DNA of 21,884 bases from a virus, in IMG/VR virus record IMGVR_UViG_3300034375_003658, positions 1 to 21,884 of that record; one strand, 5' to 3'. This document shows positions 5,076 to 14,915 of this stretch, piece by piece; positions within the stretch are counted from its first letter, which is position 1; the number at the start of each line of letters is the position of its first letter. The notes beneath the pieces were generated by a model that made no database searches, was not told the origin of the DNA, and was given only the letters and a program-made list of their open reading frames with translations. A program made the position numbers and the translations under genes.

Positions 5076-5363
5076 TCAATCTCCTAATCCGTAAAGTATG
5101 TTGTGGATAGAAGCGGGTTTGCTTTTATCCAGTTTCAGCCTGTAGCCATCCCAATCATAATAGCCGTGGATAGTGGGCATTTTGCGAAACGACCCTTTGA
5201 TTACCACCACTTCCTTGATTTGCGTTTCATCGTGATGCTCAAATAATTTTGCATCAAATGCTTTACGCAGATACCGAGCAATGTCGGAGATCCGTGGGTA
5301 TATGGGCGTCAGCCATTGACCGTGACTGCCGTGCATATAGATTTGTGCGCTGTATCGTGCCAT
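5076..5363 (-). CDS. Hypothetical protein (95 aa)
   Basis: Not recognised. The protein begins MARYSAQIYMHGSHGQWLTP, has a basic middle (FRKMPTIHGYYDWDGYRLKL), and is rich in Tyr and His. It has no signal peptide or membrane segment. GGGAG lies 9 bases before the ATG, and the upstream gene ends 3 bases before it, so the two are co-translated. The beta-prone, aromatic make-up suggests a small globular domain. Confidence 0.78.
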   Translation of the reverse strand: MARYSAQIYMHGSHGQWLTPIYPRISDIARYLRKAFDAKLFEHHDETQIKEVVVIKGSFRKMPTIHGYYDWDGYRLKLDKSKPASIHNILYGLGD

Positions 5364-5366
5364 AAC

Positions 5367-5777
5367 TCAATACTCCCTTGGCAATAGGAAGGTGCTGTAT
5401 GCGCCTCCTGTTGTAATTGGTGAATCCGATTTAATAAGGTAGAACTTCCACTCCCCATCAAACGCATCGGTGTAATCAATTTTGCGTTTCCACAGGATGT
5501 TTCCGTTGCCATCGTCAGCAGTAATAAGTGCCTTACCGTCTTCAACAATAAGGTTAACAACGACGAACTCTTCATTGAGATCATTGATCGATGTTGCAAC
5601 GATATCTAAAAACCAGTAGGCTCCACCGCCGCAGTTATCAATAAAGAACTGCACACCATTCGTGTATGCCATCGGCTTGGTAAGGGGAAGGTCGTAACGG
5701 CGAAGATAATCTGTGCCGTCATAATGTGCGAGTTGTGTTGCAAACTCGGCTGGTGAAAGGGTTGTTTCAGTATTCAT
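5367..5777 (-). CDS. DUF6876-like protein
   Basis: This 136-residue protein contains AHYDGTDYLRRY, then YTNGVQFFIDNCGGGAYWFL, then a C-terminal half with WKFYLIKSDSPITTGGAYST. The order (target-like GT-Y, a T-x-GV segment, then G-AYW-LD) matches what I recall of the DUF6876 family, small proteins of phages, plasmids and integrative elements with no known function. AGGAGG precedes the ATG, and the gene follows the 5787-5984 gene by 9 bases. No active site is apparent. The family name rests on visual recognition; the function is unknown. Confidence 0.75.
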   Translation of the reverse strand: MNTETTLSPAEFATQLAHYDGTDYLRRYDLPLTKPMAYTNGVQFFIDNCGGGAYWFLDIVATSINDLNEEFVVVNLIVEDGKALITADDGNGNILWKRKIDYTDAFDGEWKFYLIKSDSPITTGGAYSTFLLPREY

Positions 5778-5786
5778 TGTTACCTC

Positions 5787-5984
5787 CTATTGGAACAGAG
5801 TGTCATACTCATGGGTTGAAAGGAAGTGGGAAAAGTTGCTGTAACCAGCGTCTTGCCACTTTTGCCACTCGTCGAGAAATGTTTGAGCATCGTCGCCTTG
5901 CATAAAGAACGACCACCCAGACTCGTAATGTTTAACAGTAATACTGTCAAACTCACGATTTAGGCTGTAGCCACCGATAACCAT
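5787..5984 (-). CDS. Hypothetical protein (65 aa)
   Basis: Not recognised. The small acidic protein (MVIGGYSLNREFDS...) is rich in Trp, Phe and Tyr (SGWSFFMQGDDAQTFLDEWQ). AGAAAGGAG lies about 7 bases before the ATG, the same ribosome binding site type as several promoter-proximal genes here. It is the first gene of a four-gene unit reaching the terminator at 4744-4772. Confidence 0.75.
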   Translation of the reverse strand: MVIGGYSLNREFDSITVKHYESGWSFFMQGDDAQTFLDEWQKWQDAGYSNFSHFLSTHEYDTLFQ

Positions 5985-6020
5985 AATAGACTCCTTTCTG
6001 CGAGTTAAGGTTATAGTTTA

Positions 6021-6048
6021 ATATTAAAGTGTGAGTGCTTGAAAGCAA
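6021..6048 (-). promoter_or_regulatory. Possible sigma70-type promoter for the 5984-4852 unit
   Basis: TTGCTT (6048-6043), a 16-base spacer and TAATAT (6026-6021) on the minus strand lie about 37 bases before the ATG at 5984, just after the U-tract of the candidate RNA. The same TTGCTT with a 16-base spacer occurs at 16784-16811. Both are weak matches judged by eye. Confidence 0.4.
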
Positions 6049-6067
6049 ACACTAAATGCTCAAAGAT

Positions 6068-6240
6068 AAAAAAGGGTGTTCCGTGGATTTGTAGGCAATG
6101 TGTTTAAGGCAGACCCTACTTATGCTCACCGCATCCTGCTTTACAAACGTACAGCGAGGGACAGGATGGTTAGAGATCCACGGCTTTGTGTTCCGCGTCG
6201 TGCAACGCTAGGACGAGGTCAAACCCTATGCACCCCGCCC
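6068..6240 (-). ncRNA. Candidate structured RNA ending in a U-tract
   Basis: No gene fits 5985-6255, but the minus strand folds well. A closing helix pairs CCGTGGAT (6183-6176) with ATCCACGG (6088-6081). It encloses a 7-bp helix (6168-6162 with 6138-6132) and a 5-bp helix (6119-6115 with 6095-6091), giving a three-way junction. Upstream, GTGCA (6233-6229) pairs with TGCAC (6204-6200), stacked on TAGG/CCTA (6228-6225 with 6212-6209). CACCC and six U residues (6073-6068) follow the closing helix. It could be an independent small RNA, a 3' UTR element of the 6256-6501 gene or a regulated leader. No known RNA family is recognised; tRNA, tmRNA and RNase P signatures are absent. Confidence 0.45.
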
Positions 6241-6255
6241 AGAAAGGTTATTTGT

Positions 6256-6501
6256 CTACCCCCTCTTACCTTTGTGGACAGGTGTAAGCATATATTCTTC
6301 TACCTCTCCATCTATTATGATTTTTATAATATTACCGTCAATGATCCATGTTTGTTTGCCACGGTCAAGAAAGGTGATACGACTGGTAAGCCTATCTTTG
6401 ATACCATAAGCCTCACACTCAGGAAGAGTAGGGCTTGCCCAATCATATGAAACAATTAACTCCAGTATGGAAGGAGTCTGCGTAAGAGTTTGTTTATCCA
6501 T
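6256..6501 (-). CDS. Hypothetical protein (81 aa)
   Basis: Not recognised. The protein begins MDKQTLTQTPSILEL and has two parts: an acidic first half (WASPTLPECEAYGIKDR) and a beta-rich second half (TWIIDGNIIKIIIDGEVEEY) with a basic tail. AGGAGG lies 6 bases before the ATG. It is the last gene before the candidate structured RNA, whose U-tract may terminate this transcript. It is probably cytoplasmic; no membrane helix is present. Confidence 0.78.
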   Translation of the reverse strand: MDKQTLTQTPSILELIVSYDWASPTLPECEAYGIKDRLTSRITFLDRGKQTWIIDGNIIKIIIDGEVEEYMLTPVHKGKRG

Positions 6502-13144: not shown

Positions 13145-14146
13145 TTAAATAAAGTCAAAATGTTTCTTAACACGCTTAGTATATGTTCCTCCATTCAATG
13201 CTTCTTTAATTGCAGTTTCTGTTTCCTCTGTAGGCTCGGGTAACGTCTTGCGTCCCATGCGGTCAGGTAACAATCCATTACGAAGAGTGGTATTGTCGCA
13301 ACCGTTACAAGGACCGAAATCGCGTTGCCCATGATACAGTTTGGTTCTCGCCGCATGGAAAGCCTCCCCCTGCCAAATATCTTCAATATGTGTATCCATT
13401 ATATTGCCGCACTTATACCATCCCACCCAATCATTACAGCATACAGCTACATTGCCATCCCAACGGATAGACATTTCGCGGAAGGGTTTAGCACAGCGTT
13501 TACCATCTTGGTCGTGGTTCAATGGAAAAGCATTTCCAGCATGGTTGCTAACTTGGGCATGAGTTCCACTTGTAGCCAATGTAAGATCCATGCCAACAAC
13601 GATATCATGCTCTGTAACTTTTCGTCTACGGTGGGGGTTTGCGGCACGGTCGGCGGGATATTCATAAACGGGATGTGGACCATTGTAACGCTCCTTGATT
13701 TTATCTACGATTTTAATACGGTCGTAGTTATCAAGGAATAGAACGTTTAGCCCTGCATCCATAAGTTTGTTGACCGTTTCCTCTGTATCTTTCAACAACC
13801 CACCACCATTGCTAGTCATCATAAGTGGTGTTCTGGGTAACTCTTTACGGAACAGCCCCACCATTTCAATAAAGAAAGGGTGCATAGTGGGCTCGCCGTG
13901 CATAGCAAACTCAATGCGTGGATTCCACCCTGCCCTTTTAATTTCCTCACAAATGCGGGTAGCAGTTTGGATATGCAGATTTTTGTAAGGGGCAGATGCT
14001 TTGCCGTGCAAATTACTCGGACCATCAGCTTCGTTTTCACGGATAGATTGTATGCCGCAAAATGAGCAAGCAAGGTTGCACCCTTCCACAAACTCTATCT
14101 GAATAGAGTTTGGTGGGTCTTGATAAAAGTTAGATTGCTCCGCCAT
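13145..14146 (-). CDS. Radical SAM / SPASM-domain enzyme
   Basis: The protein is about 333 residues from the ATG at 14146 (an in-frame ATG at 14179 has no spaced ribosome binding site). CNLACSFCG (Cys23, Cys27, Cys30) is the radical SAM 4Fe-4S motif, followed by FAMHGEPTMHP and MMTSNGGG, typical of the TIM-barrel core. The C-terminal part has RCAKPFREMSIRWDGNVAVC, CNDWVGWYKCGN, IWQG and PCNGCDN, a SPASM-like auxiliary cluster domain. SPASM enzymes usually modify peptides or tRNA or act as dehydrogenases. The start overlaps the glycosyltransferase gene by 17 bases, so both probably serve one pathway, perhaps modification of a DNA base. The substrate is unknown. Confidence 0.9.
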   Translation of the reverse strand: MAEQSNFYQDPPNSIQIEFVEGCNLACSFCGIQSIRENEADGPSNLHGKASAPYKNLHIQTATRICEEIKRAGWNPRIEFAMHGEPTMHPFFIEMVGLFRKELPRTPLMMTSNGGGLLKDTEETVNKLMDAGLNVLFLDNYDRIKIVDKIKERYNGPHPVYEYPADRAANPHRRRKVTEHDIVVGMDLTLATSGTHAQVSNHAGNAFPLNHDQDGKRCAKPFREMSIRWDGNVAVCCNDWVGWYKCGNIMDTHIEDIWQGEAFHAARTKLYHGQRDFGPCNGCDNTTLRNGLLPDRMGRKTLPEPTEETETAIKEALNGGTYTKRVKKHFDFI

Positions 14147-14915
14147 CTTTAGCCGCCTTTCGCCATTGAACACGGACATCCCACCGTGTTTTCATACCTT
14201 CCCAACCTGTTTTGGTTTCTTTCTGCAATGCTTTCACATACAGCGGAAAGGCTTGTTCCAAAGCACGGCTGGCTCGTTCTTGCATTTCAGCGTTGCGATC
14301 TGTGCTACAGCCTCCAGCCGCGCCACTCGCACCACGCTGATCCCATGTCCAATCTACAATAACCGCATTACCATGCCCTTTTTGGAATAGGCTGAGGGTT
14401 ACATAGTAATCCTCCATTAACTCCATAGCATCGTAGCGTATGCCTAATTGTTGGAGAACATGGGGGCGTATGGCATGGACAGCGTTTTGCCGCATCCCAT
14501 ACTTCACCCTGTCAGGGTAATGTTTATCATTCATTTGGCGTGGGCTGAGGCCAACATGGGTGAAATTATTTAACAGCCATTCCATGCGCTCCCACAGTTC
14601 GTGCATCTCACCCTGCTCAGTTTTCCTTAAGTTAGGTGCGTCATCATGTGCGCGGCGACCAAATATAAGATCGTCATCCAAAATAACAATTTTATCATAC
14701 TCCTGCTCCACTGCGTGATCTACAATAAATTGGCGGACATTGTTTATGCCCTTGATTTCACCACGGTTCAGGCAGTAACGACCATTCTTAATATGTGCTT
14801 GCACTTCTTCTTGTGGGCAAACCAGAACCGCACTTTCTCTTGCTTCCGGACCAATACTTTCCCAAGTAGTTTGCTTATTGAGCCTACCCCTTGTGGGGAT
14901 AAAAATAGGTATCAT
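14130..14915 (-). CDS. Glycosyltransferase, TET-associated (TAGT) type
   Basis: This 261-residue GT-A-type protein opens MIPIFIPTRGRLNKQTTWE, the nucleotide-sugar-binding strand and loop of family-2-like transferases. IVILDDDLIFGRR (about 76-88) carries the DxD metal motif. GINNVRQFIVDHA precedes it, and AMELMEDYYVTLSLFQKGHG (about 160-180) supplies the acidic ED pair expected of the catalytic region. The arrangement fits the TET/JBP-associated glycosyltransferases that phages use to decorate oxidised pyrimidines. No TET/JBP dioxygenase is in this window. ATGA overlaps the upstream zinc-ribbon gene. Protein or lipid glycosylation is the alternative. Confidence 0.75.
   Translation of the reverse strand: MIPIFIPTRGRLNKQTTWESIGPEARESAVLVCPQEEVQAHIKNGRYCLNRGEIKGINNVRQFIVDHAVEQEYDKIVILDDDLIFGRRAHDDAPNLRKTEQGEMHELWERMEWLLNNFTHVGLSPRQMNDKHYPDRVKYGMRQNAVHAIRPHVLQQLGIRYDAMELMEDYYVTLSLFQKGHGNAVIVDWTWDQRGASGAAGGCSTDRNAEMQERASRALEQAFPLYVKALQKETKTGWEGMKTRWDVRVQWRKAAKDGGAI

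Follow-up and report, generated by a model that had tools for sequence, protein, structure and literature searches.

A covarying RNA with a predicted pseudoknot follows the replication genes in at least three phage lineages

To our knowledge, few structured phage RNAs have been described, and most of them come from model phages. The pRNA of phage phi29 contains a three-way junction and is similar in size to the RNA described below; the phi29-type phages that use pRNA are not known to have a small terminase. The EAR element of Bacillus exopolysaccharide operons is a structured intercistronic RNA with pseudoknots, which works inside the operon. Another large RNA, GOLLD, is represented by an Rfam model. 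GOLLD is described as a giant ornate RNA (PMC12286853). RNA-only antitermination has a precedent in a phage, and put of phage HK022 is an RNA of ~70 nt with two stem-loops, which is located just downstream of early promoters (PMC9378689).

The RNA presented here lies in a viral fragment of 21,884 nucleotides (IMG/VR record IMGVR_UViG_3300034375_003658), which was analysed at its full length and is referred to as the window. The initial part of IMGVR_UViG_3300034418_002553 is nearly identical to it and carries the RNA at the same coordinates. The main genes of the window are all encoded on the minus strand and comprise primase, helicase, thymidylate synthase and family-A DNA polymerase, followed by small genes and the small terminase. 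The RNA has the same direction (minus strand, ~6261-6066, ~195 nt) and is located between an 81-aa ORF (6256-6501) and a 65-aa ORF (5787-5984). The second gene past the RNA (5367-5777) encodes a DUF6876 protein (Pfam PF21781). In the replication region, a radical SAM/SPASM protein (13145-14179) adjoins a glucosyltransferase-like protein (phrog_842; 14130-14915), and this pair may have a role in DNA modification.

The initial annotation had proposed a phage-borne structured RNA of no known family at positions 6068-6240, in which an 8-bp helix closes a three-way junction that is preceded by a two-part stem. All complementary segments are indeed present when the minus strand is read: the two-part stem corresponds to the hairpins P1 and P2, and the junction is formed by the closing helix P3 together with P4 and P5, all of which covary (Table 1). 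The region is also free of genes, as had been stated, since its sense strand contains no plausible coding ORF and an antisense ORF of 124 aa (6076-6450) is not conserved, with stops in nearly every frame of the homologues. Its GC content of 0.505 stands out from that of the next 80 nt (0.333) and of the window (0.457). The proposed extent holds for these segments, but the true start lies ~20 nt further 5', at the first strand of the pseudoknot. Likewise, the six U residues thought to end the RNA exist, but they are confined to one subclade, are not a terminator and find no support as the 3' end: other subclades lack them, the U-run is not directly preceded by a stem, and the GC-rich hairpin with an immediate U-run of an intrinsic terminator is not found. 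The initial annotation did not include the pseudoknot, the broad distribution of the RNA or the conserved promoter that immediately follows it. Its two suggestions for a role, a small RNA that targets messages of the host or phage and an element of a 3' UTR, are possible readings.

Table 1. Features of the RNA and of its downstream flank in the window.
Feature	Position	Strand	Remarks
Pseudoknot, 5' strand (GGGUAGAC)	6254-6261	minus	First strand of the RNA; overlaps the UAG stop (6258-6256) of the upstream ORF; covaries with 6107-6114
Pseudoknot, 3' strand (GUCUGCCU)	6107-6114	minus	In the loop of P5; conserved UUAAA comes next; covaries with 6254-6261
Single-stranded CCUUUC	6242-6247	minus	Between pseudoknot strand and P1; retained by most subclades and also by lineages 2 and 3
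P1 hairpin, 5' strand	6232-6240	minus	Partner 6211-6219; loop GCAUAGGGUUUG; double changes in 7 of 9 pairs, 90% paired (A4)
P1 hairpin, 3' strand	6211-6219	minus	Partner 6232-6240 (A4)
P2 hairpin	6195-6208 (6208-6204/6199-6195)	minus	Optional, missing in some subclades; double changes in 5 of 5 pairs, 95.5% paired where present (A4)
P3, which closes the three-way junction, 5' strand (CCGUGGAU)	6176-6183	minus	100% paired (n=31); double changes in 6 of 8 pairs (A4)
P3, 3' strand (AUCCACGG)	6081-6088	minus	Followed by conserved GAACACC (6081-6075), whose first G is the final G of the helix (G6081)
P4 arm	6132-6168 (6168-6162/6138-6132)	minus	Conserved C-rich internal loop CCCUC (6160-6156); double changes in 7 of 7 pairs (A4)
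P5 arm	6091-6119 (6119-6115/6095-6091)	minus	Loop carries the pseudoknot strand; double changes in 5 of 5 pairs (A4)
Six U	6068-6073	minus	Restricted to the subclade of the window, L003, L005 and L041
Conserved sigma-70-type promoter	6021-6048	minus	TTGCTT (6048-6043), 16 nt, TAATAT (6026-6021); just downstream of the RNA
Shine-Dalgarno sequence (AGAAAGGAGU)	5990-5999	minus	Serves the first gene past the promoter (5787-5984)

The predicted architecture thus comprises two 5' hairpins, a three-way junction and a pseudoknot between the 5' strand and the P5 loop. None of the families in Rfam 15 matches any part of the window at the gathering threshold, permissive thresholds yielded only chance-level matches for members of all three lineages, and the RNA is not described in the open-access literature searched. 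The family is absent from Rfam 15, and its architecture is unlike that of put, pRNA and GOLLD. Like put, it is a self-contained RNA carried by phages without a dedicated phage protein and could act on the host RNA polymerase; however, it is 170-270 nt long with a three-way junction and a pseudoknot, whereas put has ~70 nt and two stem-loops, and it lies at the downstream side of replication genes and in front of a promoter rather than next to early promoters. It shares with GOLLD the nature of a large structured noncoding RNA discovered from metagenomes in a phage or prophage context, but has only ~195 nt and gives no cmscan match, while GOLLD is giant. Despite the likeness to phi29 pRNA in size and in the three-way junction, there is no Rfam match, a small terminase gene is present, and the pseudoknot topology and the genome position differ. 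With EAR, it has in common that it is a structured intercistronic RNA with a pseudoknot; unlike for EAR, there is no Rfam match, the context is a phage and the flanking genes are not conserved.

The folding energy of the single sequence is ordinary, with z-scores of -0.5 (6068-6240) and -0.84 (5985-6255) relative to shuffled sequences; the minimum free energy (MFE) is uninformative on both strands, and the folding energies of the homologues are ordinary, too. A folding energy no better than that of shuffled sequence, which the initial annotation had named as evidence against its candidate, was thus found, but this test is weaker than that for covariation. Taken alone, the ordinary energy would suit inverted repeats that arose by chance, a DNA-level element or an artefact of coding. 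Relatives were collected via the DNA polymerase and one neighbouring protein, and they carry the element at the same genomic place. In a MAFFT alignment of 17 loci made without structure fitting (A1), the five helices are 91.4% paired compared to 76.8% after shuffling, double changes occur in 22 of 34 pairs, none of 500 shuffles matches these values, and slid registers likewise come nowhere near the true pairing. Because the window sequence served to draw the five-helix structure, the percentage paired is biased in its favour; the double changes carry more weight. Most of the same core is also recovered by RNAalifold without guidance, and the consensus folding energy has a z-score of -16.5 relative to column-shuffled alignments.

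A covariance model (R1) detected members outside its training set at the same synteny (L024 with 63 bits, L036, L025 and L034), and a second model built from these finds (R2) yielded the remaining members. In the resulting alignment of 31 sequences (A4), which like A3 was fitted to the structure and therefore leans towards it, 94.5% of the cells of the five helices are paired and double changes affect 30 of 34 pairs (0 of 500 shuffles), so that the covariation suggested as a check by the initial annotation is clearly present. G-U pairs are frequent, for instance a P1 G-U in 26 of 31 sequences, which identifies the minus strand as the RNA strand. Covariation with G-U intermediates, the consensus fold, detection in unrelated lineages and stops in almost every frame all speak against explanations by chance, at the DNA level or by coding; the covariation tests refute these readings, whose probability we regard as negligible. 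As judged by comparative analysis, the RNA is real.

The G-rich strand directly 5' of P1 was seen in a complementarity scan to match the P5 loop. The two partners covary from GGGUAGAC/GUCUGCCU in the window to GGUAGAA/UUCUACC (L014), GGCGACCA/UGGUCGCU (L022), UGGAGAGU/ACUCUCCA (L036), GAGGGAACG/CGUUCCCUC (L032), GACAGAACA/UGUUCUGUU (L213) and GGGGGUCA/UGACCCCC (L268). In a permutation test with 18 representatives of three lineages, the true partners scored 337.5 versus 220.9 +- 12.2 for permuted partners, and none of 200,000 permutations reached the true value (0 of 100,000 for clade 1 alone). One best-helix rule was applied to true and permuted partners, and the 5' search regions of added members, which had been delimited manually around the motif, were identical for permuted partners. 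A second pseudoknot between GAGGG in the 5' strand and CCCUC in the P4 loop is complementary throughout, yet 37338 of 100000 permutations did as well; because it does not rise above permutation, it is not claimed here. Loops and P2 tolerate large changes among homologues. Five phages (L032:14515-14755, L031, L033, L037 and L028) carry an extended version of 235-250 nt, in which P4 is long and the 5' hairpin differs. This version scores weakly with R2 and has a perfect pseudoknot; the loop of its 5' hairpin, CGGUGAGU, is also found in L025.

At least three phage lineages carry the RNA, and their replication genes are unrelated. It follows replication or recombination genes and always lies on the strand of the replication operon. 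Each matching record contains one copy; the sole exception is a second R1/R2 match of 20-21 bits on the opposite strand (L024:13289-13437, minus), which is probably due to chance. A direct pattern search led to L092 and L105, whose sole detectable relation to the tested window proteins is a 31%-identical small terminase (TerS). Lineage 2 was reached via this TerS, and its RNAs score 117-136 bits. Presence in lineage 2 is patchy (6 of 16 records), and the close relatives L191, L194 and L215 have kept the downstream noncoding block and lack the RNA, as for an accessory module. This long conserved block precedes the small terminase and is kept whether or not the RNA is present (L188:6479-6790, L191, L215, L222 and L213); it ends in the inverted repeat CCTATTACATAGG/GGTATAGGTATATAAACCTATACC and is perhaps a packaging or replication site. 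Lineage 3 was reached via a P1 pattern, and its RNAs score 71-73 bits. These phages have a lambda-like organisation with Erf, a RecE-like exonuclease and an O-like initiator and share 0 of 29 query proteins; the RNA comes directly after the stop codon of the gene that follows Erf, and a single small gene separates it from convergent late genes on the other strand.

A looser P1 pattern revealed no fourth lineage, and ten pattern matches in GTDB genomes are chance hits (best R1 score 10.9 bits). The RNA was not found in 385 genomes of the class of G052, the genome behind L118, which is titled Alphaproteobacteria, in a search with stricter filters and no positive-control genome; blastn against annotated phages and plasmids gave no match to the RNA, and the polymerase-related phages 023Pt_psg01, DSL-LC04, HTVC027P and HTVC023P gave no R2 match in the stretches searched. 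Phage 023Pt_psg01 (MW574966) has an unannotated gap of 408 nt with many short hairpin sequences at the relative position of the RNA, 2.9 kb past the polymerase (L134:10194-10601); it matches neither R2 nor Rfam and is possibly a diverged or analogous RNA. The replication genes of lineage 2 resemble those of Wolbachia and Rhizobium phages, the lineage 3 terminase resembles that of a Pelagibacter phage, and the clade-1 polymerase resembles those of Pelagibacter phages, among others; based on these likenesses, the hosts are likely alphaproteobacterial.

In clade 1, the RNA is followed by a promoter, a Shine-Dalgarno sequence (AGAAAGGAG) and a variable first gene. The pattern TTG-N19-TANNNT is found at the same place in 15 of the 18 loci checked (absent from L036, L034 and L032), and the promoter columns are invariant in A1. 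The first downstream genes belong to 11 unrelated families while the RNA is constant, and those of lineages 2 and 3 are different again; the upstream ORF belongs to one family in most clade-1 phages and is something else in others. The small genes behind the RNA and promoter (5076-5984 in the window and the downstream regions of L006-L019) are exchanged between phages like cassettes; for example, the window gene at 5076-5363 is the first gene in L008 and L104. A new class of ligand-binding riboswitch or self-cleaving ribozyme could account for the pseudoknot-closed junction and the invariant unpaired nucleotides. However, a riboswitch aptamer would be expected to lead a conserved gene class and no downstream gene is held in common, no ribozyme or riboswitch family matches at the Rfam gathering threshold or among the chance-level matches, and loops and P2 vary widely, making either function unlikely.

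The unpaired CCUUUC could also act in cis on translation by pairing with the downstream Shine-Dalgarno sequence in alternation with the pseudoknot. Complementarity of 6-8 nt exists in most clade-1 members, and the MFE structure of the full gap contains this helix, but the complementarity is poor in L020 and L013, lineage 2 keeps CCUUUC although the Shine-Dalgarno sequence of its downstream gene is different and distant, the clade-1 promoter would give transcripts without the RNA, and the downstream genes are not conserved. Such a switch therefore appears very unlikely. The same low probability is assigned to a role in DNA packaging or replication, as a pRNA-like RNA or an origin primer. Such a role is suggested by the position of the RNA, which has the replication genes on one side and the small terminase on the other; in both lineage 1 and lineage 2, it is found 5' of TerS. 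Its distance from TerS, however, varies from 0.5 to ~3.5 kb, the late genes of lineage 3 are on the other strand, the phages encode a small terminase, unlike the phi29-type phages that use pRNA, and there is no GC-skew break at the RNA.

How the RNA is produced bears on the two remaining readings. The search upstream of the RNA found no promoter with consistent conservation, and a scan of 900 nt in its vicinity called no terminator, which fits poorly with a free-standing small RNA. On the gene strand, the three strongest intrinsic-terminator-like hairpins, which have UUCG loops, lie downstream (4772-4751, 1700-1677 and 1079-1054, minus). The RNA begins within tens of nucleotides of the upstream stop codon, often at the stop itself, and the pseudoknot strand overlaps or abuts this codon in several phages; the gene concerned lies at the downstream side of the replication or recombination block. 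Given this start and the lack of a conserved promoter or terminator of its own, the RNA most likely arises as a portion of the transcript of the replication operon.

The RNA could be a cis-acting intercistronic element located where the replication genes give way to the next operon. There, the nascent RNA would act on the host RNA polymerase by RNA-only antitermination or pausing, comparable to HK022 put, or on the processing or stability of the polycistronic transcript. This reading is a serious candidate, albeit not the preferred one. It agrees with the constant location downstream of the replication operon on the same strand in three lineages, with the lack of a conserved promoter, with the lack of a terminator nearby and the position of the strongest terminator-like hairpins further downstream, and with the phage precedent for RNA-only antitermination (PMC9378689). 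Furthermore, some phages would co-transcribe the RNA with the next gene: the RNA of L030, L034, L051 and the L032-type phages extends into the Shine-Dalgarno sequence of that gene, with 16-27 nt left to the start codon. On the other hand, most clade-1 phages have the conserved promoter between the RNA and the downstream operon, which would thus be independent of read-through; the lineage 3 RNA has a single small gene between it and the convergent late genes; lineage 2 relatives without the RNA exist; and the fold of put is different.

While the fold, the strand, the family and its mobility are established, the mode of action is an inference. We tentatively favour a self-contained noncoding RNA, which would be released from the replication-operon transcript as a compact unit and act in trans on a host component; this reading is placed ahead of the cis-acting element, which follows closely. 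The RNA would be released or held as a compact unit with its 5' end locked in the pseudoknot and its 3' end in P3, and termini tied into the fold are expected of an RNA that survives after processing. The target could be a protein or an RNA of the host, and the unpaired CCUUUC, CCCUC, GGUUUG of the P1 loop and GAACACC would be likely contact points. No phage gene accompanies the RNA in all lineages, which points to an action in trans on the host, carried by the RNA and host factors. The phages in which the RNA meets the Shine-Dalgarno sequence of the next gene count against the trans reading.

The RNA, which double compensatory changes in nearly every pair support, has an unusual closed architecture, and it is a case in which the single-sequence folding-energy test alone would discard a genuine RNA; its consensus fold makes it directly testable. 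Its persistence through the turnover of neighbouring genes in three lineages suggests that the function is carried by the RNA itself and is probably directed at the host. It is conceivable, though still doubtful, that the RNA represents a new class of structured RNAs which pass between unrelated phages as self-contained modules and, needing no protein partner from the phage, take over a host component such as RNA polymerase, an RNase or a defence protein, or shield against it.
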